Shown: piece after piece, positions 17,390 to 38,399 of the stretch
Layout: each line of letters begins with the position of its first letter
Position numbering within the stretch: position 1 is the first letter of the stretch
NCBI RefSeq assembly: GCF_030848575.1
Contig: NZ_JAVDDX010000001.1
Location: 1,364,001-1,428,000 of the forward strand
Length of the DNA stretch: 64,000 nt
Direction of reading: 5' to 3'
Source of the DNA: Haloarcula sp. H-GB4
GTDB lineage: Archaea; Halobacteriota; Halobacteria; Halobacteriales; Haloarculaceae
The notes under the pieces: generated by a model
What the model was told of the DNA's origin: nothing
The model's input: only the letters and a program-made list of their open reading frames with translations
Database searches by the model: none
Made by a program: the position numbers and the translations under genes

Positions 17390-17444
17390 TGACAAGCACA
17401 ACAGTCATTGCCAGACCGCGCCCGAATTACGTCCTACTCAAGTC

Positions 17445-18647: not shown

Positions 18648-18655
18648 CGGGCCAG

Positions 18656-19684
18656 TCACCCAGAAGTGGTTACATTAATCCAGAGATGAGTCTCGCGATA
18701 CGCGTTCGCAATCGTCGGCTCTCTTGGTGGTTCGCCGCGATAGAGCAAATACGCCAATCTGAGTCGCGGACCGGTCAGTTTTGGCGCGACGCTGTGTGGA
18801 ACCGTGTCACTCTGGTTGTGTGCGAGCGTAACTGAAAGCCGATATAGCTCGCTCTCGCGTACAGTCATCGTCCCATCGTCTGATACTTCCTGAAGTTCGA
18901 CGACGGTCGTGTATCTGATCGTCTCGTGCTCATGGTTTTCTAGCCCAAGGACGACCTGCCTCTGTTGGCCGCTCGTGAATTCTGTGGGATAGTCTCTGGC
19001 AACAAGGTCGCCATCAGCTGTTTCGGTCAGCAGATACATCTCTGTGATCCCCTCCTCGCCGGTTGGCCCGCCGACGCCAAACCCGAGGGTTATAGCTGTG
19101 ATCACAACCCCGACGATCAGCAGTATATTCAGTCCAAGGTCGACCCGGGTCGGCGGGTTTCCGAGTCGGTGACGGATAGTTCGGTACCAGGGCCCGATGG
19201 GGACGGTATAGCGATCCTCGGCCGGAAGTGCCCTGCGTCGTTTTATACCGACCACAGTGGCAAGGAGCACGAACCCGGCGATAGTGACGAACAGTGTGAC
19301 GGTTCTAAACTCCCAAGGAGATATCTCGAGAAACAATCCGCAAAAGATAACGAGCGAAATGCTCGTCGCAAGGGAGAGAGTGAACCGTTCAATCCCGTCG
19401 ACTTGGTCACTAATACTTCCCGTCGTCTCATCAGCGTCGACGCCAGCAGATGTCGGATGATTCTGTGGTGGTGCCCCGGGAAATAGGACGGCAATAAGTG
19501 CGTAGCCCGGAATGAACAGGACAAACGGAACGCCGACAATGACTCGCAACGGGGACGAACGGAGAACAGGCACGAACACTGTGAGGCCAGTCGCGGCTAC
19601 ATAGAGGAGAACAACCAGCAGATCAGCGGGGACTGCGTGCACAAATCCGGGAAGCAACCGAACAAGAAACGATCTGTTCGACAT
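18656..19684 (-). CDS. DUF1616 membrane protein
   Basis: 342 residues. The N-terminal half has paired helices with the family core VIVGVPFVLFIPGYALIAVLFPG (about 48-70), then further helices at about 108-165 and 200-225. An external domain of about 115 residues ends the protein, from YLLTETADGDLVARDYP to ETHLWINVTTSG. The same plan and many identical positions occur in the gene at 32258-33271 (YLLTEGEDGERVADGYP and EVHLWVNVTG), so the two are paralogues. DUF1616 proteins are frequent in archaeal surface-glycan regions; function unknown. Confidence 0.85.
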   Translation of the reverse strand: MSNRSFLVRLLPGFVHAVPADLLVVLLYVAATGLTVFVPVLRSSPLRVIVGVPFVLFIPGYALIAVLFPGAPPQNHPTSAGVDADETTGSISDQVDGIERFTLSLATSISLVIFCGLFLEISPWEFRTVTLFVTIAGFVLLATVVGIKRRRALPAEDRYTVPIGPWYRTIRHRLGNPPTRVDLGLNILLIVGVVITAITLGFGVGGPTGEEGITEMYLLTETADGDLVARDYPTEFTSGQQRQVVLGLENHEHETIRYTTVVELQEVSDDGTMTVRESELYRLSVTLAHNQSDTVPHSVAPKLTGPRLRLAYLLYRGEPPREPTIANAYRETHLWINVTTSG

Positions 19685-19758
19685 CTAGTGTGTTTGGTTC
19701 ATTGATCCATAATATTAGTATCCCTAGATGGTTCAGGCCTTGCTCAGCCTCGACAGCG

Positions 19759-21141
19759 CTACAACCTCGATAGTTTGTATCCGACCACTGGGTCACCGAC
19801 TGTCGTATCGTTCTCCACGACATCGATCTTATACTCATCGTCAGTGCTGTCCCACCGAACGGATGAGTTGACGCTAACACAGCAGTCGTTCGCACCGTTG
19901 CCTGTCGGGTCCAGATGGACACTCAAGTGAGTGCCTGGTTCGGAGATCCCTGTGGCGATAGTTGCCTCTCCATCTGTAAGCGTCACCGATCCGGTGGTTG
20001 CTTCACGCGACTTTGTATCAATGTCTAACTGTTGTTCCGTCCCATCGTCTTTGATCGCTTTGAGGGCTCCGCTATTCGCATCTGTGAACAGTTTGACCCC
20101 CGTTTCCGGCGGGGACGGGGATGACTTCGGGATGAACGTGATATCCGTCGTTTCACCGCGGGCTTTCGGGAGCCACGAATTCCCCTTTACTGACATCGAA
20201 AAGTAAAACAAATTCGTCAGGTGTACCCTAGCTTCGGTTTCGGGCTCAGCAAACGTCCACCGCATCGCAGTAATAGGGGGAGACGCATCAGTCAGGTCCA
20301 AGATAACGACTGCATCCGAGTTGTTCTCCTTCGTCGCAACCTGTTCCCAGTTCCCACCAGAAGACCGTACTTCGATGGAGAGATATTGTGGTTTCGCCTG
20401 ATCCCGGAACATCACCATCGCTCGTCCGGGTCCCCAGTCTTCGGAAAGGTCTTCGATAGTAATCTGTGCCGGGAAGTCTTCTGATTGGTTCCAACCGGCC
20501 CAGAGCTTTGGCCCAGGCTTGAATAGCGTGTGGAGTCCCGCACCGGCACTCAACGGAGTGTGGCTGACGTCGGCCCACGCATCAGCAAATCCGAGTACAT
20601 TGTCCTGTGCCCCAACCGCATCAGTTGCGTGTGGATGCATTCCGGGCAGTATCATGTCGTGGACATGGTTGTTCGTGTCATAGGGTCCTTTGAGCGTTCC
20701 ATTGGACAACTGAACGCTACCGGACAGTTCCAGTCGCTGCGTCTCGCTATCGAAGGTCGCATCGAACTCCTCGTTGTCACCAAATGTCACTGTCTGGTCC
20801 GTTCCAACATGGAGCGAGTCGACAGCTAATGAGCCCAATGTCGCGTCAATGCCAGTAATATCGTCACTCTGTATCGCAGTGTCTACGCCGACAGTGTCCG
20901 AATCCCGCTGCTCTATCGAGGTCGCCCCGGTAAAATCAAGCTTCGTAACATCAGCACTTACGCGAGAGCCGTCCTGCAGCACGTCAATACCGGTACCGCT
21001 GTTCCCGGTAAGCCCTCCACAGCCGGCGAAAAGAGAGAGTCCGGAAAGCCCTGTCACAGCTAGGAGTTTTCGCCGAGAGAGTGCAGTTGTCTCTATCTGT
21101 GCCGACCGTGAGTCCCCTGCCCCAGTCATTGAAGCAGGCAT
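19759..21141 (-). CDS. Tat lipoprotein with tail-fibre-like C-terminus, unknown function
   Basis: 460 residues. The signal is LSRRKLLAVTGLSGLSLFAG followed by Cys41, a twin-arginine lipoprotein signal. After it come short Gly/Asp/Thr-rich strands and a beta-sandwich-like middle (WAGWNQSEDFPAQITIEDL to RVHLTNLFYFSMSV, about 225-320). A segment then reads VKLFTDANSGALKAIKDDG, a phrasing common in tail and glycan-binding proteins, and the last 80 residues are beta-rich with VSVNSSVRWDS. I do not recognise the family. It is probably an anchored surface protein that binds glycan. An ATG at 21129 is also possible: the TATA-like AATTATAAG at about 21158-21166 fits it with a short leader. Confidence 0.65.
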   Translation of the reverse strand: MPASMTGAGDSRSAQIETTALSRRKLLAVTGLSGLSLFAGCGGLTGNSGTGIDVLQDGSRVSADVTKLDFTGATSIEQRDSDTVGVDTAIQSDDITGIDATLGSLAVDSLHVGTDQTVTFGDNEEFDATFDSETQRLELSGSVQLSNGTLKGPYDTNNHVHDMILPGMHPHATDAVGAQDNVLGFADAWADVSHTPLSAGAGLHTLFKPGPKLWAGWNQSEDFPAQITIEDLSEDWGPGRAMVMFRDQAKPQYLSIEVRSSGGNWEQVATKENNSDAVVILDLTDASPPITAMRWTFAEPETEARVHLTNLFYFSMSVKGNSWLPKARGETTDITFIPKSSPSPPETGVKLFTDANSGALKAIKDDGTEQQLDIDTKSREATTGSVTLTDGEATIATGISEPGTHLSVHLDPTGNGANDCCVSVNSSVRWDSTDDEYKIDVVENDTTVGDPVVGYKLSRL

Positions 21142-21277
21142 TCACTTTACTAGATCATAATTATAAGCCGCATACTGGAGGACGACTCTGGGTTGCACGC
21201 GTCTACTGCTCCGCCGGATACAGTCGCGATCCGACAAGCTGAGCCAATTCCGTATTTGTTCCGTCACGCCCCAGCGG

Positions 21278-22519
21278 TTAGAGATATCCCAGATCTTCTA
21301 ATCTGCTCTCGACAGTTCCGGTTTCAATAGTACCGAGGTCCGAGTACCACTCCTGTAGCGGCTCCTGTATTTCGGGTCGGCTCACAAAGTCACTTACCGC
21401 GTCAAGCAGTTCCGTCGGCGCGGCCTGTTTCGGTTTCGGATATAATTCGTCTGGATCAGACGCTAACTGATAGAATTCCGTATTAATAACGTTCCAGTCA
21501 TAATCGTAGGTGTTCACCAGTTTCTCTCCTTCTGTCCGGATACCAGCCCATATTTTTTCCGTGTCGTCATCCGGTCCACATAGTAGGTGTTGTGGGGGTA
21601 CGGTTGCCGCCGCCTCAGTCCCCTCCCAGACAGTCGGTGGATCAAGGCCCAGGAACCGGAGTATCGTCGGGGCGATGTCGATCTGACGGGTGAGACCGTC
21701 CGTTAGTTGACCAATATCACTGTTTGTCAAGAGCGGGACGCGGACAGTTTCGTCGTACAGTTGCTTGTGACTCACAATCCCGTGATCGAACTCCTCGCCA
21801 TGGTCAGCAGTAATGACAGTCGGGGTATCGCCGAGCGTCTGGAGCCACGGCGTAAGATGGGTATCCAGTCGCCGCACAGCCTGTTTGTATAGGCTCCGTG
21901 AATGCTGCCGCAGCCACTTGGGATACGCTGTGTCGTCGTACTGGGGTGCCGCTGCGAGCGAAAGCGGTGATAAGACAGGTCCGATCTCCAGTCCGCGTGT
22001 TACTCCGGGGAGATACGGTTTATGTGGTTCCATCAGATGGACCCAGAGGAATCGTGGTGGATCAGTGTTTTCCCACCAGGTCTGCGCTCGTTGCAAAACA
22101 GTTTCCGCAGGTATCAGCGGCTTTAGTTGCAGAAGGTTACGTGCCCGTTCGAGGCCGAACCGTAGTCGGCTCGAATCCTCGATCCCGCCGTTCCAGAACG
22201 TGTCGAATTCGTCACGCCATCGACTCAGCCAGGGGTTCGAAGCGATAAATCCGGCTGTCGAGTAGCCAGCTCGGTTAAGCTTCTCGGGCAAGGTCGGGAT
22301 GTCTGGGTTGACAGTCCCGTCTTTCATCCAGACCTGCGGGTAGTATGACGCTCCAAACAACGCTGGAAAAGTATTGCTCGTGTTTGAGGACGTTGCTATC
22401 GCTGCTGTTCGCTCCCAATCGCTATTAGCCGTATACGATCGGAATTCCGGCATCGATCTTAGTGCATCGTCTCTCCAGCAGTCAATCGTCACGAATACGA
22501 AATCAGTCATCCCAGACAT
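21278..22519 (-). CDS. Sulfatase / alkaline-phosphatase-superfamily enzyme
   Basis: 413 residues. FVFVTIDCWRDDALRS at residues 8-23 has the first metal Asp, and VITADHGEEFDHGIVSHKQLYDETVRVPLL near 237-266 the second metal site. FLWVHLMEPHKPYLPG is also a family block. In the nucleophile region (ATSSNTSNTFPALFGASYYP) there is no Cys, so the formylglycine sulfatase chemistry is unlikely and a Thr or Ser nucleophile is expected. The C-terminus ends in VESRLEDLGYL, a tail shared with the enzymes at 59321 and 61979. Translation may begin at M1 or M4. The AT-rich stretch TTAATTAAATAC on the minus strand at about 22548-22559 is a likely TATA box. Confidence 0.85.
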   Translation of the reverse strand: MSGMTDFVFVTIDCWRDDALRSMPEFRSYTANSDWERTAAIATSSNTSNTFPALFGASYYPQVWMKDGTVNPDIPTLPEKLNRAGYSTAGFIASNPWLSRWRDEFDTFWNGGIEDSSRLRFGLERARNLLQLKPLIPAETVLQRAQTWWENTDPPRFLWVHLMEPHKPYLPGVTRGLEIGPVLSPLSLAAAPQYDDTAYPKWLRQHSRSLYKQAVRRLDTHLTPWLQTLGDTPTVITADHGEEFDHGIVSHKQLYDETVRVPLLTNSDIGQLTDGLTRQIDIAPTILRFLGLDPPTVWEGTEAAATVPPQHLLCGPDDDTEKIWAGIRTEGEKLVNTYDYDWNVINTEFYQLASDPDELYPKPKQAAPTELLDAVSDFVSRPEIQEPLQEWYSDLGTIETGTVESRLEDLGYL

Positions 22520-22941: not shown

Positions 22942-25900
22942 TTAGTCCGCCGACTCCTCGTCGGGCGTCCGCGTTCGGTCGCCGCTCGGGAGCAACGAGA
23001 CCGGCGAGGCCGTCAAATACGGCACCGTTGCGACGAGGGCCCCGAACAGGGCAAGCGAGACGCCGCCGACAAATATCGCTGCAAGGATGGCTGGCGGCGT
23101 CCGCGCGGAGAGGCGGAAGCCGAAGAAGACGAGCCAGCCAGCCCGTTCCAGCAGCTGTAACGCGAGAACCGATAGGCCAAGAGCGAGGCCGGTTGCTGGA
23201 ATTGCGATTCGAGCGATATCAGCCAGAATCGTCCGCAAGACCCGCCACTGCGTCGCGCCGGTCGAACGATGGATACCGATAGCTTGCCGACGCGCGTGGA
23301 CACCCTGTGCGAACGTCGCCGTGGTACTGCCGACAGTACTCAGCGCCGAGAGGACGACAAGGACGCCGAGAATCAACTGGACGTTCCCGAACACGCCCTC
23401 GACGGAGCGCTCAATTGGCGTTCCGGACGCGTACGACCCGCTGCTTGCCACCGCGGATGCCAGCCGGCGGTCGCCGGTCACCTTGTAGTCCGCCGTGGTG
23501 AGGGTGGTCCCGTTGGCTGTCATTCGATAGGTGTACGTTCCGGGCTGGCTCCGTCCGCCGTCCGGGGAGAACCGCGTTTGCGTGACGTTTCCGGGCGGCA
23601 TATAGACAGTCCGGTTCCGGGAAACGCCGGGGCCAATAACGCCCACGTTGCGCGTGAGCGGTTCCTGCCAGGGGTTTGCGAGTCCGACCCTGAGCGTTGG
23701 CGTCGTCAGGACCGACCCCGATGACGGAGCTATCGACAGCTCCCCGTACAGTTCCCGTTCGGTTCCACGGACGATCTGAATGTCGTGTGTCGCCGTCTGG
23801 TCTCCGGACCGGGCCGTTATCGTATAGTTCCCCGGCTCGCGTGGCAGGGGAACGACGGCGACACCGCTCGATCCAGTTCTGAGCGACGGGCCGTTCACCG
23901 TGACGGTGGCGTTCGAAACGCGCTCTCCAGTTTTGGTGACGACAGGGACGGAGAGCCCCGACCCGGGCGGGGCCTGGGATGGCAGCTGGCTTGGAATCTC
24001 GATAGCGTTCGGTGAGACCACGGTCACCGAATGTGTGTACTCCCCGGCAGTAGCGTTGGCAGTCCCCAGTTCCGACGCGGTAACGGAGACAGTACTAGTC
24101 CGCTCCTGTCCCGGCGGGACAGCCACCGTCGTTGTCCGCTGGTCGCCCTGATACTGGACTGTGACTTCCCGGTCCGCCCGCTCGTTGCCGACGTTTCGGA
24201 CGGCGACAGTGAGGTTGACTGTGTCACCTTTCGTGACGCGACTTGGACCCGACAGCCCTGTCACGACAGCGCCCGATTGGTTGGCCGCGACACCGTCGGC
24301 GTCGTCGAGAGCTGAGACCGAGCCTTTGACGCGGATCATATGAACCTCTCCCGGTCCGGTCGCCAAGTCGGCCGCGGAGTCAAGCGGCAGAATGAGCAGG
24401 TCATCGAGCGTTCTGGGGGCGTCGTACCGCCCGACAATAGTGACCCGGCGAACCCCAGGCTTGACGCTTCCACTGACGGTCAGTTCGTCACCGACCCCGA
24501 CATCGAGCGTCTGTGCGAGGTCGCTCCCGATGACGGCCTCGTCATGTCGCTGTGGTCGCTGGCCTTCGACCAGCGTGGCCCCGGTGACGTTCGCGAACGC
24601 GTCGTACTCCGCCCCATGAGCCATGTACGGCTGGCCGTCCGAAACCTGAGCGTAGATGACCTCCGGGCTGGCCGGCGTCCCGTCGGCACTCAGGGCCGAA
24701 GCGTACTCAGCATCGAGACGACTGTTCAGCGGGTGGGGCGCGCCGGCTTCAGTGATGGTCCCGGTTCCGCCTGCTTCACCGCCAAGTGGGGACGCGAGGC
24801 CAGCCAGGGAGACGACCAGCAGGAATGTGATTCCGAACACGGTCAGCGTCGCCGCCGTCGGCACGACCGAGCGCCACGAGAGAAACGTCGGTGTGACCCA
24901 GCTTCTGAGCGTCGCAAGCGCCGACTGCCCGGACTGGCCGGATCGAGTATGGCGGTTTCCGAGAGATGCCGGTGGACGAGTCGCCGCAGGGTAGGCCGCA
25001 AGCGCGCCTGCAACCAGCCCCATCAAAACGAAGATTCCAGCGACACCAGCAACGACAGTGGCGCTCTGGCCGGTAACAGTGATATCAAGCGCGATTGGGA
25101 GGCCGACGAAAATCGCGACGTTGACGAGCGCCTTGATAAGGATGAGTCCGACAGCGTAGCCCAGCACGACTCCGGTCGTGACGAGGAGGCCGGCGCGAAG
25201 CGTAAACAGAAGCCCTACACGCCACCCCGATGCGCCAGTCGAGCGGATGACTCGTATTGCATCGAGTCGGTCGCGAACGCTCATCCGCGTGACGTTATAG
25301 ACGACGATGAGGACCAGCAATCCGCCGGCAGCCGCGGCGATACCCAGCGCCCAGAGAACCTGCTCCAGACCGCCGAGGACGTACAGGAGCGCGCTGACAA
25401 GCGGTGCCCCCTCACTCGGAAGACTCCCGAGCCCGGTCCCGCTCGGGCTGTGGTCGATGACGAAGTAGCCGGTGACGCCGACCCGCTGGGCAGTCGAGGC
25501 GTTCGTCGCGTACCACTGATTCGAGAGGAACGTCGTTCCCCGCTCTTGTGGAACAACCGTGAGGGAGACAGTCCCGTTTGACCCACTGACTGTTCGGGTT
25601 CGCTGCTGGGAGACCGGTCCCCGGCCATCAACCCCATCGGGAATCGTCGGTAATCGCCCCTCCTGCCACTGGGCCGACCCCTCGATAAGCACCCTGGGCG
25701 TATCGGGCGGAATGCCGACGAGACGAACGTCGGTCCCGTCTGTGGTCGCCGTCGCTGTCGGGAGCACGGTGATATCCTCGCCGGTTTCCGGGGGGCCGTT
25801 GTCCGCGTCGTGGTAGGTGACCGTCCCGGAGTTCGCAAGCGGTTCGGCGAACGTTTCCGAGTACGTTACGGCGGTGAACAACAGCAGGACCGTGCCGATG

Positions 25901-25986
25901 AGAAACGCGGCCGTGACGGCGACGACGACGACGGTGAGCCGATCCCGTCTGGACCAGCGAAACAGGAGGGCGTTTCTGTATCCCAT
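22942..25986 (-). CDS. FtsX/MacB-type ABC permease with inserted CARDB/Ig-like domains
   Basis: 1014 residues. An N-terminal helix (about 15-38) and an external region lead to a first FtsX-type block at about 200-345 (VLGGLEQVLWALGIAAAAGG, ATRPPASLGNR). A second membrane entry is at about 375-400 and a MacB-like external domain at about 400-560 (EAVIGSDLAQTLDVGVGDEL). Then come CARDB/NEW3-like segments, with NLTVAVRNVGNERADREVTV near 587-606, and an Ig/carboxypeptidase-regulatory-like segment (GVAVVPLPREPGNYTITA). The second FtsX block at about 865-1000 ends in ALVATVPYLTASPVSLLP. It is the membrane half of a LolCDE/MacB-type transporter or mechanotransmission complex. The inserted Ig-like domains make it about twice the usual permease length. 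The ATPase gene ends 7 bases upstream. Confidence 0.85.
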   Translation of the reverse strand: MGYRNALLFRWSRRDRLTVVVVAVTAAFLIGTVLLLFTAVTYSETFAEPLANSGTVTYHDADNGPPETGEDITVLPTATATTDGTDVRLVGIPPDTPRVLIEGSAQWQEGRLPTIPDGVDGRGPVSQQRTRTVSGSNGTVSLTVVPQERGTTFLSNQWYATNASTAQRVGVTGYFVIDHSPSGTGLGSLPSEGAPLVSALLYVLGGLEQVLWALGIAAAAGGLLVLIVVYNVTRMSVRDRLDAIRVIRSTGASGWRVGLLFTLRAGLLVTTGVVLGYAVGLILIKALVNVAIFVGLPIALDITVTGQSATVVAGVAGIFVLMGLVAGALAAYPAATRPPASLGNRHTRSGQSGQSALATLRSWVTPTFLSWRSVVPTAATLTVFGITFLLVVSLAGLASPLGGEAGGTGTITEAGAPHPLNSRLDAEYASALSADGTPASPEVIYAQVSDGQPYMAHGAEYDAFANVTGATLVEGQRPQRHDEAVIGSDLAQTLDVGVGDELTVSGSVKPGVRRVTIVGRYDAPRTLDDLLILPLDSAADLATGPGEVHMIRVKGSVSALDDADGVAANQSGAVVTGLSGPSRVTKGDTVNLTVAVRNVGNERADREVTVQYQGDQRTTTVAVPPGQERTSTVSVTASELGTANATAGEYTHSVTVVSPNAIEIPSQLPSQAPPGSGLSVPVVTKTGERVSNATVTVNGPSLRTGSSGVAVVPLPREPGNYTITARSGDQTATHDIQIVRGTERELYGELSIAPSSGSVLTTPTLRVGLANPWQEPLTRNVGVIGPGVSRNRTVYMPPGNVTQTRFSPDGGRSQPGTYTYRMTANGTTLTTADYKVTGDRRLASAVASSGSYASGTPIERSVEGVFGNVQLILGVLVVLSALSTVGSTTATFAQGVHARRQAIGIHRSTGATQWRVLRTILADIARIAIPATGLALGLSVLALQLLERAGWLVFFGFRLSARTPPAILAAIFVGGVSLALFGALVATVPYLTASPVSLLPSGDRTRTPDEESAD

Positions 25987-25993
25987 CGATTCG

Positions 25994-26695
25994 TTAGTTC
26001 GTCTCCGTGGACGGGCTCGCGTCCGGCGCCGAGGCGGTATCGGAGACGAGGGTGCCGCCGCGGATGAACAGCCGTTCGTCGAACCGCTGGGCCAGTTGCG
26101 GGTCGTGGCTGATGACGACGAGTGCGGTCTCCGTCGATTCCTTCATACTGAACAGGAGGTTTAGGACCGATTCGGCGGTATCCGGATCTAGCTGCCCGGT
26201 CGGCTCGTCAGCAAGGATAATTTCGGGGCGGTTTGCAAGTGCCCGTGCGATAGCAACCCGCTGTTTCTCGCCCCCGCTCAGCGTCGCAGGGTACTGGTGT
26301 TCGAGTCCGGCGATGCCTAGGCGTTCGAATAGCGTGTCCAGCCAGTCGGGATCACGGTTGCCCGCATGTTCTTGCGGGAGCGACGCGTTCTCGCGGGCCG
26401 TCAGGTCGCCGATGAGCTGGAAATCCTGAAAGACGAACCCGAGCGTCGTCCGACGCAGCCGGGCACGCTGGCGTTCGGATAGGGCACTCGCGTCTCGGCC
26501 GGCGACTTCCAACTGACCGCTAGACGGTGGTTCTAGCAGTCCGAGGACATTGAACAGGGTCGACTTGCCGGCTCCGCTAGGCCCCTGAACGAGCATCGCC
26601 GCGTCGGACCCGACGGTAAGTGAGACACCGTCGAGAATCTTGGTCCCCCGTCGTGTGACACACAGCCCTGAACCGACGAGGACGGGGTCAGTCAT
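25994..26695 (-). CDS. ABC transporter ATP-binding protein, LolD/MacB type
   Basis: 233 residues from MTDPVLVGSGLCVTRRG; an in-frame start at 26743 adds 16 residues with no family match. Walker A is GPSGAGKST at 38-46, the signature is LSGGEKQRVAIARAL, Walker B is IILADEPTGQLD, and the switch His is in VISHD. Length and the PTGQLD form fit the LolD/MacB group, which energises release or export of lipoproteins or surface material by FtsX-type permeases. Seven bases separate it from the permease gene, so the two form one unit. Confidence 0.9.
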   Translation of the reverse strand: MTDPVLVGSGLCVTRRGTKILDGVSLTVGSDAAMLVQGPSGAGKSTLFNVLGLLEPPSSGQLEVAGRDASALSERQRARLRRTTLGFVFQDFQLIGDLTARENASLPQEHAGNRDPDWLDTLFERLGIAGLEHQYPATLSGGEKQRVAIARALANRPEIILADEPTGQLDPDTAESVLNLLFSMKESTETALVVISHDPQLAQRFDERLFIRGGTLVSDTASAPDASPSTETN

Positions 26696-26784
26696 TGTCG
26701 GCCTTTCTGCCGGCCCCGTATTGTATGCCACGGTTACATACACGGGAGAGACCGAGGGTGGAGAGCCAATCGAACTGTGTGCGC

Positions 26785-28535: not shown

Positions 28536-29849
28536 TTACGATAGGCTGTCGATCTGTAACTCCCTAGCGTGTTCGACTGCGGCTTCCGCACTGGCACGGT
28601 CCATCTGGTCCGCCGAGAAGGCCGCGCGATCGTATGCCTCCACGACGGTCCGGACCGCGTCGACCTGATCTGTGTCGAGGGCGCTGTCCTCACACCATGC
28701 AAGCAATTCCCAGTGCGTCTTACTGTTCTGAAAGTCCGCAACAGCCCGGATGTCATCGGCGACCGATTCGTATGCCATCGTGACCGCTGAGTCGTACTTG
28801 CCGGCCGCGAGAGCGTTCCCCATCTGGTCCGTCGGACTGTCAGTTGATGTGGGAGTGTCGTCGATGGACTCGATGGCTTGTGGCTCGTCGGTGCCCGTCC
28901 TCACGGTCGTCTCTGTCCCCTCAGACTCGGGGGTAGCGTCGGAAAACAACCCAAGTCGACGAACGATGACCTCAAGAATCAGAAGGATAATCGCGGTCAG
29001 CAGTGCAGCGATGACCGGGACTGTGAAGAACGAACGGATCTGTGACACGAGCGACTGGGGACTGCTCCCTGACGGCTCCGTTGAGCCACCCGAGGTATCA
29101 ACGGTCGCCGACGACTCTGCCGCCTCAGGGCCGACTATGATCGATGCGGTCGCGCGCTTGCCCGCAATCGCACGGCCCTCATACGGAATCACGGCCGTGA
29201 CGGTTTGTTCACCGGTCGTTACGCTTGGCGGCAGCCTGATACTGGTCGTCACCGTCCCGTTGCTCCCGGTCACCACGCGTTTGAACAGCGCCCCACCGAT
29301 GCGTAGTTCGACCGGGACATTGCTCACACCCTCCCCGTTGACGCGCACTGCTGTCGTGACTGTTAGCTCGTCGCCGGTAGCGAGACGGGTCGGTGACCGG
29401 TCGAGGGTGAGCGTCGGGGTCACCTGCGTGACACTGGCAGCGACGGTTGCCGTGTCACCGCGATACACCGCAGATTGGGCCGGAGTATATCGGACCGTAA
29501 CGTCAGTGGGACCGGTCTGTGCCGAACGGGGCCGGTACTGGAGCGCGAACGAACCGTTACCATCGGTCTCAACGAGTCGTGTTCGGTTTTCGACTTCGAG
29601 TCTGACCTGCTCGTTCGCGACGGGCGTCCCGTTCGCCGTCCGCAACGTCCCGCGGATGGTAGCGGGGTTCGTGTAGGAAATCGATCCGGGACTGATCTGA
29701 ACGTCGAGAGTCGTATTCACAGCCCCTGTCTGGGTTTGCATTGGCGTCTCGTTACTGTCGGTAGCGACGGCTGTTGACCCGCCGATCCCGACAAACAGGA
29801 CCAGCAGGACTGTTCCGACACCAACGAACCACGACTGCAGAGTTGCCAC
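28536..29849 (-). CDS. Ig-domain membrane protein with DUF4129-like cytoplasmic end
   Basis: 437 residues. A signal segment (about 7-28) is followed by two Ig-like domains: residues about 50-145 (TIRGTLRTANGTPVANEQV) and about 150-245 (ELTVTTAVRVNGEGVSNVPV). A membrane helix lies near 275-300 (VIAALLTAIILLILEVIVRR). A 90-residue helical cytoplasmic end follows: GKYDSAVTMAYESVADDIRA, then KTHWELLAWCEDSALD, then VVEAYDRAAFSADQMDR. The end resembles the C-terminal region of DUF4129 proteins. The next gene upstream is a longer paralogue. The protein probably links an external Ig-like sensor or scaffold to a cytoplasmic partner; this is inference. Confidence 0.75.
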   Translation of the reverse strand: MATLQSWFVGVGTVLLVLFVGIGGSTAVATDSNETPMQTQTGAVNTTLDVQISPGSISYTNPATIRGTLRTANGTPVANEQVRLEVENRTRLVETDGNGSFALQYRPRSAQTGPTDVTVRYTPAQSAVYRGDTATVAASVTQVTPTLTLDRSPTRLATGDELTVTTAVRVNGEGVSNVPVELRIGGALFKRVVTGSNGTVTTSIRLPPSVTTGEQTVTAVIPYEGRAIAGKRATASIIVGPEAAESSATVDTSGGSTEPSGSSPQSLVSQIRSFFTVPVIAALLTAIILLILEVIVRRLGLFSDATPESEGTETTVRTGTDEPQAIESIDDTPTSTDSPTDQMGNALAAGKYDSAVTMAYESVADDIRAVADFQNSKTHWELLAWCEDSALDTDQVDAVRTVVEAYDRAAFSADQMDRASAEAAVEHARELQIDSLS

Positions 29850-29969: not shown

Positions 29970-32129
29970 TCAGTGATTCCCGTTCGACTTGATCTTACGG
30001 GCGCGCTCCACAGCTGCTTCGGCCCGTGACGGGTCGACTGATGTCGGCGCGAACGCTGCGGCCTCGAAGGTTTCGACCACCGTTTTGATATCTGCTATCC
30101 GTTCCTCCGAGACGCCGTGCTCCTGGCTCCGCTGGAGGAGTTCCCAGTGTGTTGCCCCCTCGTCAATCCCGTTTTCCACTGCCAGCACGTCGTGAACTGC
30201 GGTGTACGCTGCCATCACTGCGGCGTCGTAGTTCCCGCTGTCCAGATACGTCTCGACGCGGTCCTCGAACGTCGGCGTCGGTTCGTCTGACGACATCGCC
30301 GACGGATCAGAGTCAGCCATTGATGCATCAGCCGTCTCGGTCTGGACAGGCGAGTCCGCCTCTCGGGGTTGGCGGACACGTGACACGACAAACCAAGCTG
30401 CGGCGACAACCACAAGTGCTACCCCACCACCGAGGACGGGCAGCCAGCTGTAGCCGATAACCCCGTTCCCGAAGGCCGCTGGGTTCTCATCGGAGCCGAA
30501 CAGTATCGCCACCAGCGTATCGATGAGCAGATCATTATCCGAATCTGAGCCGACCGGTGGGTTGCCACCGCCGGATCCAGCCGCCAGCGTTGTCGTTGCA
30601 GTCGCATTACCGAGGTTTGCCCGTGGCTCGTCGTACGTTGCGGTGACAGTCACAGATTCGTTGCCTTGGGGATTCTCGAGAACAGTCTGGAACGACCCGT
30701 TTCGGTTCGTCTCGACCCGCTGTGTTCCGCTAGCACCGATCTGCAGGCGTACCGGGCGACCCACCACTGGGTCCTCCTCAGCAACAGTCTGGAGTTTCCC
30801 GCTGACGAGGACCCCGTCATCCGTGCGTGATGCATTCACTGAGAGGTTTGTTCGAGTCTCGACGACGACAACAGGGGTTTCCGACTGGACGCCTGCAATT
30901 GCTCGGTCCTCATACGGAACCCGGGCGATGACCTGACGCTCCCCGTCATTTACCGTCGCCGGGAGTCGGATCGTTTCTGTGGCGGTGCCGTTCGGTCCGG
31001 TCGTCGTCCGCGCAACGACAGACTCACCAATAGCAAACTCGACTGGGACCGCATCGACACCGTCCGACGCGACTGTCACGGACGCCGTGGCGTTGAGTCG
31101 GTCGCCGTATCCCACCGAATCCGGTGCGATTTCGCTCGTCAGGTCCGGGGTCACCTGTTGTACGGTAATCACGAACGTGGCGTTGTCGGACAGGTACACC
31201 GAGTCAGTTTCTGGGACGTACTCGATCGATATGGATTGCGACCCGAGCCTGGCCGAACGTGGCCGGTACTGCGTTTCGAATACGCCGCTCGAATCAGTCT
31301 GGACAGTCCGCGTCCGGTTCTCGATCCTGAGTTCAACCGCCTCGTCCGCGATGACCGAGCCATTCTCAGTCTGTATCTGGCCGGCGACCGTTCCGGAGTC
31401 ACTGAATGATGCGGTCGAGTCTATCGACCGAACCGTGAGTGTCGTTCCAACGAGCGTCTCTTCACGGATGACTGCCTGCGTCGCCGTGATGTTCGCTGTC
31501 GTCTCGTTGATCTCGGTCTGTCCCGAAGACAGGTCAATAGATGTGATGTTCTCAATCCGGTCGAGGTTCTGATTCAGTTCGTTGCTCCTGTCGCTGATGT
31601 TCGACGCCGTTCGCTCCATCGCCCGTGCAGTGGTGCGGGCCTCGCGTTCGTTACCGCGCTCGCGTGCCGTCTGATATGCCGCGTACTGTTGCCGATACCG
31701 CTGGACCTCGTTCGTTAGGTTTCGCTGGTTCTCGCGCGCGGCCTCAAACTCCCTCGCAGCGGTGTCGTCCGTATCCGACGACGTGTCTCCAGCAACCTCG
31801 ACGTACTGCTCTAGACGCTTGTCGTAGTCGTCACCGAGGACCGACCGAGCCCGGTCGTACTGGGCGTTCGACAGCGCAATACTGCTGTTTTCCAGCTGTC
31901 CGCCCATCGTCCGAGCTAACCAGGCGGCTGTTTCGTCGCTGTACTCCCCGTTCGATACCGAATCCGGGTTTTCCTGTTGCGTCTCGTTGTTGTCCGTCGG
32001 CGTCTCCACCTGACGGTTCAGAGCCGGACCCCCGTCGTCAGTTCCCATCGCTGCCACCCCACCAGCGCCCGCTGTAAGCCCCAGTATTGTCAGGATGGCG
32101 AACACGGCCCACGACTGGCTCCGGAACAC
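29970..32129 (-). CDS. Long Ig-domain membrane protein with DUF4129-like cytoplasmic end
   Basis: 719 residues. After a signal segment (8-28) there is an external helical region rich in Gln, Glu and Arg (about 60-215), likely coiled coil (ARENQRNLTNEVQRYRQQYA). Three Ig-like domains follow: about 235-325, 330-425 and 430-520. The phrases ELRIENRTRTVQTDSSGVFE and QYRPRSARLGSQS match the paralogue at 28536. The membrane helix is near 567-590, and the cytoplasmic end repeats the paralogue's plan (YDAAVMAAYTAVHDVL, THWELLQRSQEHGV, VVETFEAAAFAP). Gene order and shared domains suggest tandem duplication with gain of the coiled coil and one Ig domain in this copy. It diverges from the DUF1616 gene. 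Confidence 0.75.
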   Translation of the reverse strand: MFRSQSWAVFAILTILGLTAGAGGVAAMGTDDGGPALNRQVETPTDNNETQQENPDSVSNGEYSDETAAWLARTMGGQLENSSIALSNAQYDRARSVLGDDYDKRLEQYVEVAGDTSSDTDDTAAREFEAARENQRNLTNEVQRYRQQYAAYQTARERGNEREARTTARAMERTASNISDRSNELNQNLDRIENITSIDLSSGQTEINETTANITATQAVIREETLVGTTLTVRSIDSTASFSDSGTVAGQIQTENGSVIADEAVELRIENRTRTVQTDSSGVFETQYRPRSARLGSQSISIEYVPETDSVYLSDNATFVITVQQVTPDLTSEIAPDSVGYGDRLNATASVTVASDGVDAVPVEFAIGESVVARTTTGPNGTATETIRLPATVNDGERQVIARVPYEDRAIAGVQSETPVVVVETRTNLSVNASRTDDGVLVSGKLQTVAEEDPVVGRPVRLQIGASGTQRVETNRNGSFQTVLENPQGNESVTVTATYDEPRANLGNATATTTLAAGSGGGNPPVGSDSDNDLLIDTLVAILFGSDENPAAFGNGVIGYSWLPVLGGGVALVVVAAAWFVVSRVRQPREADSPVQTETADASMADSDPSAMSSDEPTPTFEDRVETYLDSGNYDAAVMAAYTAVHDVLAVENGIDEGATHWELLQRSQEHGVSEERIADIKTVVETFEAAAFAPTSVDPSRAEAAVERARKIKSNGNH

Positions 32130-32232: not shown

Positions 32233-32257
32233 ACCGTGCCGATATGACTCATTGCCA

Positions 32258-33271
32258 ATGGCTGAATCCCAGGCGTGGAAACTACTCTTGCCGCGCCAGC
32301 TCCGCCACCTCCCGGCTGATCTAGCAGGCGTTGTCGGCGTTGTGGTCCTGACAAATCTGGCTGCCTTGCTGCCGGTCGTCTCCGACACGCCGGTCCGCAT
32401 CATCGCCGGGCTCGTGTTTGTCCTTTTCATCCCCGGCTATGCGTTCATCGCAGCGCTGTTTCCAGAAGCTGGGAGTGGCCCCAGTACCGACGATGAAACC
32501 GTTTCGAACCCAGAAGCGGACGGGATCGACGGGATCGAACGGACCGCACTCTCGTTCGGGCTCAGCATCGCTCTCGTTCCTCTGGTTGGCCTGGTGTTGA
32601 ACTTCACACCATGGGGCATCCGCCTGCTTCCGATTCTCGTCTCGCTTAGTGGACTGACGCTCGTGTTGACCGCTGTCGCGGCTGTCCGACGCTGGGCGCT
32701 GCCCGCCGATGAACGGTTCCGAGTTCCGTATCGCGCGTGGCTTAGTGCCGGGCGTGAAGAGGTATTCTCGCCGGCCTCGCGGACTGACGCCGCCCTGAAC
32801 GTACTGCTAGTCCTGAGTATCCTGCTTGCAACCGCCAGTGTCGGATACGCCGTCACGGTGCCCAAAGACGGTGAGCGATTCAGCGAATTCTACCTGCTGA
32901 CAGAGGGTGAAGATGGCGAGCGCGTTGCTGACGGCTATCCGACGGAGTTTCAGCGGGGCGAAGGTCGCTCGTTGATCGTCGGTATTGGGAATCAGGAACA
33001 CGAGCGGACGGAGTACACCGTTATCGTCGAGTTACAACGCGTTGAGCGCGTTGGGAATGAGACGCAGGTCCGGGAGCAATCTGAACTACAGCGCTTCCAG
33101 CCGACGCTGGGACACAACAAGACCTGGCAGCGCCAGCACGAGGTGGAGCCCGAGATGACTGGGGAGAGACTTCGGCTCCAGTACCTGCTGTACCGTGGCT
33201 CACCGCCAGAGACTGTGGCCCAATCGACCGCGTACCGGGAAGTCCACCTCTGGGTGAACGTGACCGGCTGA
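32258..33271 (+). CDS. DUF1616 membrane protein (paralogue of 18656-19684)
   Basis: 337 residues from MAESQAWKLLLPRQLR. The family core VRIIAGLVFVLFIPGYAFIA is near residues 46-65, with more helices at about 105-160 and 190-215. The external end runs from FYLLTEGEDGERVADGYP to EVHLWVNVTG. The same external end, nearly residue for residue in places, occurs in the gene at 18656, which lies in the glycan cluster. It is transcribed divergently from the Ig/DUF4129-like pair. Function unknown; the shared external domain suggests the two proteins bind the same kind of ligand or partner. Confidence 0.85.
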   Translation: MAESQAWKLLLPRQLRHLPADLAGVVGVVVLTNLAALLPVVSDTPVRIIAGLVFVLFIPGYAFIAALFPEAGSGPSTDDETVSNPEADGIDGIERTALSFGLSIALVPLVGLVLNFTPWGIRLLPILVSLSGLTLVLTAVAAVRRWALPADERFRVPYRAWLSAGREEVFSPASRTDAALNVLLVLSILLATASVGYAVTVPKDGERFSEFYLLTEGEDGERVADGYPTEFQRGEGRSLIVGIGNQEHERTEYTVIVELQRVERVGNETQVREQSELQRFQPTLGHNKTWQRQHEVEPEMTGERLRLQYLLYRGSPPETVAQSTAYREVHLWVNVTG

Positions 33272-34051: not shown

Positions 34052-34192
34052 TCAGACTGGGGCTGTGGATTCTATCGGCGCTTCGCCGCAGTTGACACAG
34101 ACGTACTCTTCATCAACGGTGACCACGACCGGTGAGTTGCACTTGATACACTTGATCTTCGCCGCACGAGATGGTTTTGCGTAGTCCCCCAT
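34052..34192 (-). CDS. Small zinc-ribbon protein, 46 residues
   Basis: Minus-strand ATG at 34192 to TGA at 34052. The product starts MGDYAKPSRAAKIKCIKCNS and ends with VCVNCGEAPIESTAPV. The CxxC pairs (residues 15/18 and 32/35) form a two-knuckle zinc ribbon. The core is Lys-rich, unlike most proteins here. An AT-rich element, TTATTTACA on the minus strand at 34221-34229, is about 33 bases upstream and suits a short leader. Such small zinc ribbons are abundant in haloarchaea; partner unknown. Confidence 0.75.
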   Translation of the reverse strand: MGDYAKPSRAAKIKCIKCNSPVVVTVDEEYVCVNCGEAPIESTAPV

Positions 34193-34383: not shown

Positions 34384-36138
34384 TTAGTCGCGTCGTGCCA
34401 GGAATCCAGCGCCTAGCAGTGCTAGCACCGCGACGAGGACGGTGAACCCGGGACCACTCGAACTCGTGGTTTCGACCGTGCCCTCCGTTCCGGCTGTGTC
34501 CGTATCGTCGGGTTGCTGTGCCCCACCACCTGCGGTCGTAGCTGCTTCCGTTGGTTCCGCTCCGCCTCCAGTCTCGGTGCCGTCGTCGGTGTCGGTGTCA
34601 GTCGTAGTTTCGTCCGCTGTGTCTTCTTCGGTACTCTCGTTATCGGAGTCGTCATCACCGCTATTGTTGTTGTCGCTGTCGTCGCTTCCGTCGTTATTGT
34701 TGTCGTCGTTGTCGTCGCTTCCGTCGTTATTGTTGTCGTCGTTGTCGTCGCTTCCGTTGTTATTGTTGTTGTCGTCGTTGTCGTCGCTTCCGTTGTTATT
34801 GTTGTTGTCGTCGTTGTCGTCGCTTCCGTTGTTATTGTTGTTGTCGTCGTTGTCGTCATTTCCGTCGTTGCTGTCACTGCCATCATCGCCGCCACCAGTG
34901 TTGTTATCACTGTCGTCGTTATCGTCGTCCGACTGTGACAGTGTGACCGTTCCTGTGGAGGAACTGATCTCGTTTGAGTCTTCGCCAACAGCGACGTGCA
35001 CGTACGTGTACGTCCCGTTCGACCAGGAGTCGAGCGTTTCGACATCGATGGTGGTATCGGAGGTATCGGATACCGTTGTCGCCGAGGCGTGCATCATATT
35101 ATCACCAGTCGAATCCGGCGATGCTTCGGAGAGAACGAATCCGAACAGGCCGATCAGCCCCGCAGACGGCATCGTCCCCGCGGCTGTCGAGTCCCCACCG
35201 GTGAGGGTAGCGCCATCACTGGCCGACGAAACGCCGTTGACGCCCTCAAAGGAGTTCTCGACCGTGACTTGATCTTCGGAGAAATCCTCATTGATGTCAC
35301 CAGTCACCCGAACGGTGCTCGTCTGGCCCTGCAGTTCGTCCTCATCGAACAACAACACGGCGTGCGTGACAGAGTCGTCTTCCAGTTCGGTCTCGATATC
35401 GAGCGAGACGTTATCCCCGGTGGAGACATTGTCGGCGGTCGCCTCGACCGTAGACGCGCTTTCCTGAACCAGCGTCTGTTCAACGCCGACAACGGTCACG
35501 TTTCCATCGGCCGAAACGTTGTTGTCCGAAACGGACAGTCCTTGTCCGTCATCGACGGTGACCAGAATGAAGCCGTAGGCACCACCCGAGTCAGGTGTGT
35601 ACGAGGTTTCGAGCTCACCATTTTCATCTAGCGAACCGACCCCGTCCGCGTCGTCTAACAGTTCGACCGAGTTAGCGTTGGAATCGTTCGTAAAGATACT
35701 AGCTAGATCGGTTCTGACGCTCCCTTCGCTAAATCCAGCCGACTCTGGGCCTTCAGAGAGTCTGACAGCAAGCAGTTGCGCCTCGTCGCCGGCGAGTCCC
35801 GTGGTTCCAGCCCCGGTAGTTGATTCAAACGTAAGATCAACTGCTTCGCCTGTCTCGTGAATCGTGTACTCATCCCTGTTGAGGGGAACGTCACCGGTCT
35901 GTGCAGACTCGATGTTGATGTACGTCTCTGGCGCTGCTATCGTCGTTGGGCCGGTAGAAGACGTCCGAAGTGGGAGCAGTGACCGCTCCCAGACATCCAC
36001 GTTTTCCGTCACTGCCGTCGTTTGTCCGTCATCCACTGGCGTTGCCGCTGCCGACGTTACCGACAAGGGAGCGGCTAACACCAGCAGCACTGCAATCGCA
36101 CAAATTACAGTGTGTTTCCCTCTTGGTGTTTTATACAT
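34384..36138 (-). CDS. Secreted surface protein with DDN-repeat stalk and PGF-CTERM-like tail
   Basis: 584 residues from MYKTPRGKHTVICAIAVLLV, where a signal peptide ends at about AAA. The mature part opens with VTENVDVWERS and is beta-rich and acidic for about 360 residues. A low-complexity stalk of Asp, Asn, Gly and Ser follows (five 11-12 residue repeats), then a Thr/Glu/Gly linker. The end is SSSGPGFTVLVAVLALLGAG followed by FLARRD, the plan of an archaeosortase-processed PGF-CTERM tail. An in-frame GTG lies 16 codons upstream at 36186, but that stretch holds a TATA-like AATTATACC at the leaderless spacing, so I take the ATG. The next gene upstream is a paralogue. Confidence 0.85.
   Translation of the reverse strand: MYKTPRGKHTVICAIAVLLVLAAPLSVTSAAATPVDDGQTTAVTENVDVWERSLLPLRTSSTGPTTIAAPETYINIESAQTGDVPLNRDEYTIHETGEAVDLTFESTTGAGTTGLAGDEAQLLAVRLSEGPESAGFSEGSVRTDLASIFTNDSNANSVELLDDADGVGSLDENGELETSYTPDSGGAYGFILVTVDDGQGLSVSDNNVSADGNVTVVGVEQTLVQESASTVEATADNVSTGDNVSLDIETELEDDSVTHAVLLFDEDELQGQTSTVRVTGDINEDFSEDQVTVENSFEGVNGVSSASDGATLTGGDSTAAGTMPSAGLIGLFGFVLSEASPDSTGDNMMHASATTVSDTSDTTIDVETLDSWSNGTYTYVHVAVGEDSNEISSSTGTVTLSQSDDDNDDSDNNTGGGDDGSDSNDGNDDNDDNNNNNGSDDNDDNNNNNGSDDNDDNNNNNGSDDNDDNNNDGSDDNDDNNNDGSDDSDNNNSGDDDSDNESTEEDTADETTTDTDTDDGTETGGGAEPTEAATTAGGGAQQPDDTDTAGTEGTVETTSSSGPGFTVLVAVLALLGAGFLARRD
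34684..34857 (-). repeat. Tandem 36/33-bp coding repeats
   Basis: Three units encoding DDNDDNNNNNGS (36 bp) followed by two encoding DDNDDNNNDGS (33 bp) make up the stalk of the surface protein. Units are nearly identical at the DNA level, so copy number is likely variable. The in-frame unit lengths keep the protein readable on expansion. Confidence 0.85.
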
Positions 36139-36465
36139 TACTGAATTTTTTCGGAGGGATACGGTATAATTCTTATGCAGTGACACTCAGCGCTACACAG
36201 TGTCATATGAAGGTTTCAAGACACGTAGATACTGTTGCGGGATTTTACAGGGCGAATCCTGAATCCTGTCTCGGTACGGTTACCCTATTCGCATCGGTGA
36301 GAACTGTACAGAATAGCGACTGGTCGACGCTATCTAATTGACAACATACCCGGATTTATGGCCATTTAGATGATATATCCGTGGGAGCGGTCAGGATCAG
36401 TAACGGTCGGTGATAAAATGAGTGACTTATTCTGTGGGCCCGCCCTGTGAAGGCCGCCAGAGCAG
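36139..36465 (-). other. Intergenic region between surface-protein paralogues
   Basis: 327 bases. It contains the promoter of the downstream paralogue, with AATTATACC (minus strand, about 36163-36171) roughly 28 bases before the ATG at 36138. No gene is seen. Confidence 0.5.
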
Positions 36466-37764
36466 TTATTCTGCCTCGTCTTCGTCGTCCTCCGCAGTGT
36501 TGTTCGGTCCGCTGGCGTTATCTGGGGGACCGCCGCCGTTGTCAGGGCCGCCGCCCGGACTCAGTGCCACCGTGCCGGTATCCGAGTTGACCGTTCCGGA
36601 CTCAGTGCCGACCGCGACGTGGACGTACTGATACGCGCCATTTGGCCAGGAATCCAGCGTCTTGACCGTTACGTTGCCGTCAGAGTCAGCGCTGACGACC
36701 GTTGCAGAGGCGTGGATAACGTCGCCGTCGGCATCCGCTTCAGCTTCGGAAACCACGGTGCCGAATATACCCTGTACCCCGATTGCAGGTATCGACTGGT
36801 TTTCGGAGAGATTGAGACCTGCGATACCGGTGTTGTCGCCGACTGTCGCAACACCGCTGACGCTGTCAAAGGAATTTTCGACAGTGATCTGGTCCTGACT
36901 GAAGCTCTCGTTTAGCTTGCCGGACACCGTCACCGTACTTGACTGCCGCTGGAGTTCACCCTGTCTTACCAGCATTACTGCGTGCGTGACGTTTTCGTCC
37001 GCCATCTCTGTTGCAACGTCTAGCGTGACGTTATCACCGGGATTGACCGGGTTTTGCGTCGACTTGACGGTCGAAGCGTTGTCCTGCACAAGCGCCTGCT
37101 CGACACCGACAACAGTAACGTTCCCGTTAACCGACACGTTTCCGTCGGATACCGACAGTCCCTCTTCGCCGCTATCGACAGTCACCAAGACGAGGGCGTA
37201 TACACCGCCCGATTCAGGAGTGTAGGACGCGTTTAGTTCACCCTCGTCACTTATCGCTCCAACGCCATCTGCATCATCAAGTAGTTCCGCTGACGTGAGA
37301 TTCGAATTGTTTGCGAAGATGTCTCCGAGTGAGCCCGAAATGTCGCTCGTGTTTGCGCCTTCGGTGGTCGGTGCTTCATCTAACTTGACAGCCAGTAGTT
37401 GCGCTTCGTCGCCGGCAAGTGCCCTCGTCCCGGCACCGATCCTTGGCTCGAAGGACATATTTATCGACTCGTTGCGCTCATGGACTGTCAGCGTCCGCTT
37501 GTTGAGCGGTAAGTCGCCAGTCGCAGCTGATTCGACGTTGATGAACGTCCGAGGTGCCACTATCGTAGTCGGCCCTTCTGATGTCGTTCGAAGCGTGAGC
37601 GGGGACCGCTCCCACACGTCGACGTTTTCGGTCACCGAGACCGACTGGCTCTCGGCAACGGGGGTTGCTCCGACGGTGGACGTCACTGATAACGGACCAG
37701 TGAGTACCAGCGTGACTGCCATCACGAGGATGACAGCCGGTTTTACTATTGGTGTTTTTACCAT
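36466..37764 (-). CDS. Secreted surface protein, paralogue lacking the PGF-CTERM tail
   Basis: 432 residues from MVKTPIVKPAVILVMAVTLV. The signal peptide, the VTENVDVWERS opening, and blocks such as LRTTSEGPTTIVAPRTFINV and AELLDDADGVGAI match the gene at 34384 closely. It stops after a short Gly/Pro/Asn linker (GGGPDNGGGPPDNASG) and an acidic end AEDDEDEAE. It has no stalk repeats, no PGF motif and no C-terminal helix, so it should be released or held by other means. The minus-strand AAATATATC (about 37789-37797) is centred about 29 bases before the ATG, again pointing to a leaderless start rather than the GTG at 37812. Confidence 0.8.
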   Translation of the reverse strand: MVKTPIVKPAVILVMAVTLVLTGPLSVTSTVGATPVAESQSVSVTENVDVWERSPLTLRTTSEGPTTIVAPRTFINVESAATGDLPLNKRTLTVHERNESINMSFEPRIGAGTRALAGDEAQLLAVKLDEAPTTEGANTSDISGSLGDIFANNSNLTSAELLDDADGVGAISDEGELNASYTPESGGVYALVLVTVDSGEEGLSVSDGNVSVNGNVTVVGVEQALVQDNASTVKSTQNPVNPGDNVTLDVATEMADENVTHAVMLVRQGELQRQSSTVTVSGKLNESFSQDQITVENSFDSVSGVATVGDNTGIAGLNLSENQSIPAIGVQGIFGTVVSEAEADADGDVIHASATVVSADSDGNVTVKTLDSWPNGAYQYVHVAVGTESGTVNSDTGTVALSPGGGPDNGGGPPDNASGPNNTAEDDEDEAE

Positions 37765-38399
37765 TACCAAAACAGTACTGAAGCCTGTGATATATTTCTT
37801 GTGCAGTGACACTATTTGAGTGACTTCAGAGAGTCTCTAGACGCACATAGCGCACAAACTAGAGTGTAATTGATTGTTTTCTTTTAGTTATTTCTTTTTG
37901 ATGGGTACTAGCAAATAAGGTGGTAATTAACCGATACTAAAACAGTCTATATAATAGCCCAGTGACTGTAGCCTGTGTTTAGAACTGTAATTACTGAACT
38001 AATCTGGTACAATCCAGTAGAGAGTTCGCTTCATCGGGCAGGTGCCATAGGCTAGTTACTGAGGGCTGTCAGGCACGCGGCGCTGCAATTCCACCTGACT
38101 CTCATGAAATACCCGAAAGCATGACATCGGCCCGTTTTCGGACGGATTGTGGCATGGGAGACTCCCCTCGGAATCCAGTCGGGACGAGACCACAGTGGGA
38201 GAGAACACGGAGAACCGCATCGCGAAGATACGTCTCTGGTATATTGGGTCGGAGAATTGCGAGGGAAGATCGCTCCGTGCGAGTCTTCCAGCACCGATCG
38301 GCCTCGTCTTCTCCGCGAGTCACCACCGGGGACGGCGGCGAACTCGCGACCGTGACGACGGCCGCTCACTGTTTGCGAGGGACCGTGTCGGTCCAACAG
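37765..38399 (+). other. Noncoding region, AT-rich then GC-rich
   Basis: The first 270 bases (to about 38040) are AT-rich with no coding frame. From 38050 several frames are open in both directions, but none has a start, domain or composition that convinces. I see no known RNA. Confidence 0.4.

Follow-up and report, generated by a model that had tools for sequence, protein, structure and literature searches.

How does a cell come to carry two versions of one surface protein side by side, one with a membrane anchor and one without, and at which codon does each of them begin? These questions are raised by a locus of the archaeon Haloarcula sp. H-GB4 that lies within a stretch of 64,000 nucleotides, referred to throughout as the window (NCBI RefSeq assembly GCF_030848575.1, contig NZ_JAVDDX010000001.1, positions 1,364,001 to 1,428,000 of the forward strand). 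At window positions 34384-37812 two paralogous genes, which we call U and D, lie in tandem on the minus strand:

36466 to 37764, minus strand: gene U, predicted secreted surface protein without an anchor, 432 amino acids from the ATG at 37764, stop at 36466; upstream GTG at 37812.
34384 to 36138, minus strand: gene D, paralogue with a stalk and a PGF-CTERM signal, 584 amino acids from the ATG at 36138, stop at 34384; upstream GTG at 36186.

The explanation that we consider likely is that a whole transcription unit was duplicated in tandem, that each copy has its own leaderless promoter, and that the two copies encode a membrane-fixed protein (D) and a mobile one (U). A first-pass annotation of the window had described the genes as tandem paralogues sharing a signal peptide, a VTENVDVWERS opening and a body. 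This description holds; the proteins are 57% identical over 419 aligned residues, signal peptide and opening included, and no third copy is found in the same genome in a search at an expectation value (E) of 0.01 or below. We infer that an N-terminal Sec-type signal peptide exports both proteins.

The pair is present in 15 of 32 Haloarcula genomes, always as two neighbouring copies and always with U upstream of D. (Note that the named relatives found by protein search, at seven distinct loci, are likewise all from Haloarcula, H. japonica and H. vallismortis among them; they overlap with the 15 pair genomes and are not independent of them.) The difference in anchoring is a fixed property of the pair. 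In particular, the C-terminus of the window's D matches the PGF-CTERM models of both Pfam (PF18204, E 0.00067) and NCBIfam (TIGR04126, E 6.9e-10), each above its curated cut-off, and a gene for archaeosortase A, artA, is present in the same genome (TIGR04125, E 1.6e-104). ArtA substrates are described as combining a PGF motif with a hydrophobic domain and with residues of positive charge (PMC7157517). The window's U has no Pfam or NCBIfam match at E≤1, PGF-CTERM included. Neither protein matches a curated surface-glycoprotein model of NCBIfam at E≤1, and the only other match of D there is a weak one to RNase E, far below the cut-off. The features that distinguish the two C-termini are as follows:

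36469 to 36570, minus strand: Gly/Pro/acidic C-terminal tail of U, with no membrane segment.
34664 to 34869, minus strand: Asp/Asn-rich stalk of D, a 36-nucleotide unit repeated 5.9 times with 94% matches.
34390 to 34467, minus strand: the PGF-CTERM signal for sorting of D (residues 574-599 when numbering starts at the GTG), matched in Pfam and NCBIfam.

A GPGF-type end is found in 15 of 15 D proteins and a PGF-CTERM-like end in none of the 15 U proteins (these ends were judged by eye; among the D proteins the library scan covers the window's copy only). Consistent with this, the highest mean Kyte-Doolittle value over 19 residues near the C-terminus is -0.08 or less in every U and 1.68 or more in every D. 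The U tails extend 30-41 residues beyond the body and keep their Gly/Pro/acidic composition in all 15 genomes. The claim of the first-pass annotation that one paralogue is anchored by PGF-CTERM and the other is not is thus supported across the 15 genomes; the long stalk that it described is found in the window's D. The number of N-X-S/T sequons per protein is 13-19 in the 15 U and 7-14 in the 15 D.

What becomes of U is less clear-cut. A released form is plausible, and U could have either of two fates, release or a non-covalent hold by the surface layer (S-layer) or by its partner D. The evidence fits release and non-covalent retention alike. In the stronger version of retention, U stays cell-bound: its body or the acidic Gly/Pro tail would dock onto D, onto the glycoprotein of the S-layer or onto glycans at the surface, and the two proteins would belong to one surface complex. 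We hold this to be quite possible, if somewhat short of an even bet. The tail composition is constant in all 15 U, the genes adjoin in the same order in all 15 genomes, and ectodomains with 57% identity might well pair with one another; on the other side, the tail is of low complexity, has no second copy in its own genome (E≤1) and contains no recognisable general retention signal. It was for the lack of that second copy that we rejected the tail as a shared signal.

We turn to the regions upstream of the two genes. A block of the form GTGTCACTGCA.AAGAA.TATA starts 48 nucleotides 5' of each ATG and is open in the frame of the gene:

37791 to 37812, minus strand: candidate promoter block of U (-48 to -27), with the TATA element ATATA at 37791-37795.
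36165 to 36186, minus strand: candidate promoter block of D (-48 to -27), with the TATA element TTATA at 36165-36169.

In leaderless haloarchaeal genes the TATA element is expected about 25-31 nucleotides before the start codon, and the spacing in U and D fits this expectation. A TATA box had been proposed at -28; the element is centred at about -29 (-31 to -27), close to the position given.

Within the window, AGTGTCACTGCA has two exact copies and six matches with 2 mismatches, and this total of eight is not far above chance (in shuffled sequences the mean is 4.6, and 7 of 100 shuffles reach eight). For the longer pattern TCACTGCAYAAGAAWTATA, in the 4.19 Mb of its own genome there are two exact sites, both at the pair, and one other site, with 3 mismatches, elsewhere; at up to 2 mismatches there are exactly two sites in each of the 15 pair genomes and none in the 17 other genomes of the genus. 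The block was thus probably copied along with the gene and retained in both copies, and probably serves no other gene at up to 2 mismatches. A wider regulon was considered, with searches at up to 3 mismatches in its own genome and up to 2 in the 32 genomes of the genus, and was rejected at a stringency of 2 mismatches, because there the pattern marks only this pair. The part of the block upstream of the transcription factor B recognition element (BRE)/TATA region, TCACTGCA, may be a private operator.

Two side observations concern the same regions. First, the D promoter (36178-36205, minus strand) contains a near direct repeat, TGACACTG and TGTCACTG, 20 nucleotides apart; as judged by eye, 7 of 15 D genes have an exact copy of the upstream word and another 5 a copy with a single mismatch. 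Second, an out-of-frame ATGTTTCAGTAATG at about -11, overlapping the true start, occurs in 7 of 15 U genes (for example L009, L013 and L015), with a variant in two more; its position is 5' of where the transcript is expected to start, and the window's U copy is without it.

Comparison of the 15 genomes supports the leaderless promoters that the first-pass annotation had proposed, and makes leaderless starts at ATG 37764 (U) and ATG 36138 (D) very likely. The distance from block to ATG is 48 nucleotides in all 30 genes, with an ATG at +1 in every one of them, and the extension between contains an in-frame stop in two (TGA at -15 in one U gene, TAA at -30 in one D gene). A mechanical open reading frame (ORF) call begins at the GTG upstream of the ATG, and the in-frame GTG start that had been noted is a true description of the window's two genes; it does not describe the genus, in which the -48 codon is mostly ATG in D (ATG in 13 genes, GTG in 2) and mostly GTA in U (GTA in 8, GTG in 4, and ATG, TTA and TTG in one each). 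Nine of the 15 U genes have neither ATG, GTG nor TTG at -48. Moreover, in D there are few synonymous differences in the block (0.028, versus 0.258 in the signal peptide), and the ratio of nonsynonymous to synonymous differences (pN/pS) is 0.98 in the extension versus 0.50 in the signal peptide. Note also that because the -48 codon lies 5' of the TATA element, a transcript begun from this promoter cannot contain it.

Several findings weigh against this reading of the starts. In U, block and signal peptide show the same level of synonymous difference (0.277 and 0.278), and the extension has a pN/pS only modestly higher than the signal peptide has (0.73 and 0.59). With synonymous changes in the U block as in coding sequence, what carries the leaderless case for U is the absence of start codons, together with the stop and the position of the TATA element. 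All 15 D genes have a -48 codon that could serve as a start, and translation of an extended D is directly excluded only in the one species with the TAA. Finally, conservation of the block is not special, since two of three neighbouring genes reach 95% mean identity over upstream stretches of 23 nucleotides (zinc-finger gene, 0.95, 5 sequences; AstE, 0.95, 7 sequences; DUF309, 0.83, 7 sequences; U itself, 0.94, 8 sequences). (This control omits D, for which the pattern also matched U, as well as YdjM and DUF1616, with 2 sequences and 1 sequence, respectively.) With two of the three neighbouring genes as well conserved, conservation alone was dropped as an argument for a promoter.

Could the extension then be translated from the GTG or ATG at -48, giving a longer signal peptide, with the block conserved as coding sequence? 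The coding-like synonymous difference in U, the ATG or GTG that every D gene retains and a frame that is open from -48 in 28 of the 30 genes all speak for it, but we regard it as highly improbable in view of the two stops, the nine U genes that have no start codon at -48, the scarcity of synonymous differences in the D block, and the place of the -48 codon outside a transcript begun at the TATA element. The comparison instead supports the block as promoter rather than coding sequence, a finding that is sound but ordinary, leaderless promoters being common in haloarchaea. In Haloferax volcanii, 72% of protein-coding transcripts are reported to be leaderless, a class defined there by a transcript start 0-5 nucleotides before the start codon (PMC4983044). 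The first-pass annotation had expected pipelines to choose the wrong GTG start. Among five annotated distant homologues that were examined (of 13 records with a match), two have an annotated start placed after the signal peptide, an error towards a shorter protein and not a longer one. (These two are L157, start at 5226, and L159, start at 5061; the proteins are listed without the signal peptide.)

A maximum-likelihood tree of 45 ectodomains places all U in one clade (98/92) and all D in another (96/90), so that a single duplication suffices. Nearest to the pair is L104, a short protein from another genus that has no PGF-CTERM match (grouping 100/97), and next out are L106 and L107 from a third genus (grouping 94/85), L106 with a PGF-CTERM match; both placements refer to a midpoint root that was chosen for drawing only. 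Loss of the anchor in U and in L104 could represent one event or two, and the tree fits either. It is barely credible that U is just D in decay, with no change of note but the lost anchor, even though a simple mutation can remove a C-terminal signal and the next outgroup (L106, genus g10) has PGF-CTERM, because U reads stop-free from its ATG in 15 of 15 genomes, has a pN/pS of 0.14 over codons 51-110 (calculated without realignment; a shift would raise the value), and has a 40%-identical relative in another genus that is also short with no PGF-CTERM match. (The corresponding value for D, 0.47, also calculated without realignment, was not used; small upstream deletions may inflate it.)

The tandem duplication that we favour, promoter included, is supported by this tree together with the promoter that the two genes share and that is private to them. 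The whole transcription unit of one secreted ectodomain protein would have been duplicated before the split of the pair-carrying Haloarcula species. Each copy would be transcribed from its own promoter, with the TATA element directing initiation to the ATG or to a position beside it; the mRNA would thus be leaderless and the in-frame codons upstream would go untranslated. Following export of both proteins through the Sec-type signal peptide, archaeosortase A would cut D at PGF-CTERM, as judged from the known ArtA pathway, and D would be fixed to a membrane lipid, its ectodomain held on the acidic Asp/Asn stalk and a Thr-rich neck. U, which has the same ectodomain but ends in a Gly/Pro/acidic tail with no anchor, would be released or else kept at the surface of the cell by non-covalent contacts. 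Gene order is constant and the two genes have the upstream element in common, which suggests joint production of both forms of a single surface module, one membrane-fixed and one mobile. Since roughly half of the related genomes examined retain the pair and its promoter, the anchored/unanchored difference is probably useful to the cell.

The ectodomain itself belongs to a larger family. Profile searches find it in 34 of 146 genomes of the taxonomic family and in at least 101 of 392 genomes of the order, in 40 of 95 genera, pair genomes included; four candidates were scored per genome in the order-wide search, which makes its result a lower bound. Profile searches and alignment indicate that U and D are homologous to this family across the whole ectodomain. 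No Pfam or NCBIfam model covers the ectodomain of U or D at E≤1, and among ten relatives scanned at E≤0.1 the ectodomain has only weak overlaps below the cut-offs (TIGR04279, E 0.0072; Filamin, 0.053; DUF4232, 0.071; TIGR03836, 0.072). A sequence search of the PDB returned no relative below E 0.7 (Filamin-B, E 0.75, and TRIM45, E 0.82, were not taken as homology), and an AlphaFold model of the D ectodomain, although beta-rich, has a mean pLDDT (predicted local distance difference test) score of 46 and is too poor for use. Neither the pair nor its ectodomain is named in a title or abstract opening among the literature matches listed for haloarchaeal PGF-CTERM, archaeosortase, DUF1616 and FtsX, which does not by itself establish absence from print. 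One family member, L112 (an ORF of 828 amino acids, 2320-4803), has in place of an anchor a C-terminal D.N.NGEIDTLEIL repeat, which we take to be a dockerin-like motif.

Relatives outside the pair often lie near genes for ATP-binding cassette (ABC) transporters. An ABC ATPase match is found at 13 of 17 such loci, as counted with a generic oligopeptide-type ATPase query over stretches of 6.5-19 kb; with an oligopeptide-type set 2.8 kb off, the locus of the pair itself would pass this count too, and we therefore dropped the count as a sharp test and kept it as a lead. Five annotated plasmid records (of the 13 with a match) were inspected. In three, genes for an ABC ATPase and two permeases come after the family gene, and one of the permeases is annotated as FtsX-like; one of the remaining two records is without this arrangement, and in the other the stretch stops inside the family gene. 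A neighbourhood comprising the family gene, an ABC ATPase, permeases and a partner protein of about 350 amino acids recurs in haloarchaea (L111, L117, L118, L119, L157-L161), although not every locus has all of these parts.

Eight candidates for this partner, picked by size and place (348-402 amino acids), are all mutually similar (E≤1e-3 in at least one direction), and by eye four of the eight have a PGF-CTERM-like end. Within Haloarcula the partner is clear in genomes G002 and G018 and weak in G006; G002 and G018 are the two genomes of the genus that carry another type of family member, which adjoins the partner gene in G002 and lies about 150 kb from it in G018. The partner is found in none of the 15 pair genomes (E≤1e-5; 64 of about 95-131 candidates scored per genome), so that the U/D pair looks like a partnerless offshoot. 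No ABC genes directly adjoin the pair; the distance from U to the start of the oligopeptide-type set is 2.8 kb, and 7.6 kb separate D from an ABC/FtsX unit (window 22942-26743, minus strand) that consists of an ABC ATPase gene and a gene for a 1014-amino-acid protein with an FtsX match. The ATPase of this unit is 48, 39 and 39% identical to the ATPases beside three relatives. A bolder proposal is that U and D are the two obligate parts of one surface module, binding each other or a common ligand, in which the ratio of mobile to fixed protein tunes adhesion or S-layer remodelling, and that this module is a lineage-specific offshoot of a widespread family that works elsewhere with an ABC transporter of the MacB/LolD kind; we offer it as a speculation that is rather unlikely to be right in full.

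Other neighbours of D recur as well. Each of the seven named Haloarcula loci has, close to D, a gene for a 46-amino-acid protein with two C..C motifs (window 34052-34192, minus strand) and a YdjM gene. Six of the seven also have a DUF1616 gene there, with none in the stretch examined for L072. DUF1616 genes are also near family members at three of the 17 loci outside the pair (L104, L105 and L110). Two of the genome's own four DUF1616 genes are in the window (18656-19684, minus strand; 32252-33271, plus strand). Further afield, window positions 14839-22519 hold two glycosyltransferase genes, a GLF-like mutase gene and a sulfatase gene, and between the ABC/FtsX unit and D there are two genes whose products look secreted and match MG4 slightly under the cut-off (28536-29849 and 29970-32129), as well as one for a membrane-protein-like product of 562 amino acids.

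The pair represents a well-conserved arrangement that is new within known types of anchoring and promoter, and is no new kind of system. What makes it valuable is that it offers, in nature, one ectodomain in two versions, of which only one has an archaeosortase anchor, and thereby a direct test of release versus retention at the archaeal surface. It also draws out an ectodomain family, often near an ABC transporter, that occurs in about a quarter of the order's genomes searched and for which no Pfam or NCBIfam model was found. Moreover, start codons of haloarchaeal genes, of which two in five annotated examples examined drop a signal peptide, can be settled by comparing the promoters of orthologues.

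How do U and D compare with systems that are known already? In Haloferax volcanii, the N-glycoprotein cluster hvo_2160-hvo_2173 includes a DUF1616 protein (PMC8241124), and the region is reportedly important for the regulation of cell shape (PMC10869688). The U/D pair is likewise near a DUF1616 gene, and in the published table for that cluster HVO_2160 is marked Sec and ArtA where HVO_2161 is marked Sec only. Homology between HVO_2160/HVO_2161 and U/D is not established and the link is only a lead; a back-translated peptide of HVO_2160 (PMC8241124) matched none of the 392 genomes, a set in which the presence of Haloferax volcanii is itself not established. Members of the haloarchaeal ectodomain family, annotated as 'PGF-pre-PGF', 'CARDB' or 'PGF-CTERM sorting domain-containing protein', are homologous to U and D over about 380 residues, W.R...LR opening included, but many are longer, and outside the ectodomain five of ten scanned have a PGF-pre-PGF match and six of ten a CARDB match. 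Several relatives have an ABC ATPase, permeases and the partner of about 350 amino acids as neighbours; in the pair genomes that partner was not found among the candidates scored. D resembles PGF-CTERM/ArtA substrates (PF18204, TIGR04126) in its PGF motif, its hydrophobic segment and its basic end, in a genome with artA; its tandem paralogue U is without all of those features, and the ectodomain of the two matches no curated family at E≤1. Lastly, like haloarchaeal leaderless genes with BRE/TATA promoters, U and D have a TATA element that ends 27 nucleotides before an invariant ATG. Together with the TATA part, the element TCACTGCA has no other site at up to 2 mismatches in its own genome or in the other 31 of the genus, orthologous pairs excepted, and it is this element, just 5' of the TATA and common to both paralogues, that is special to U and D.

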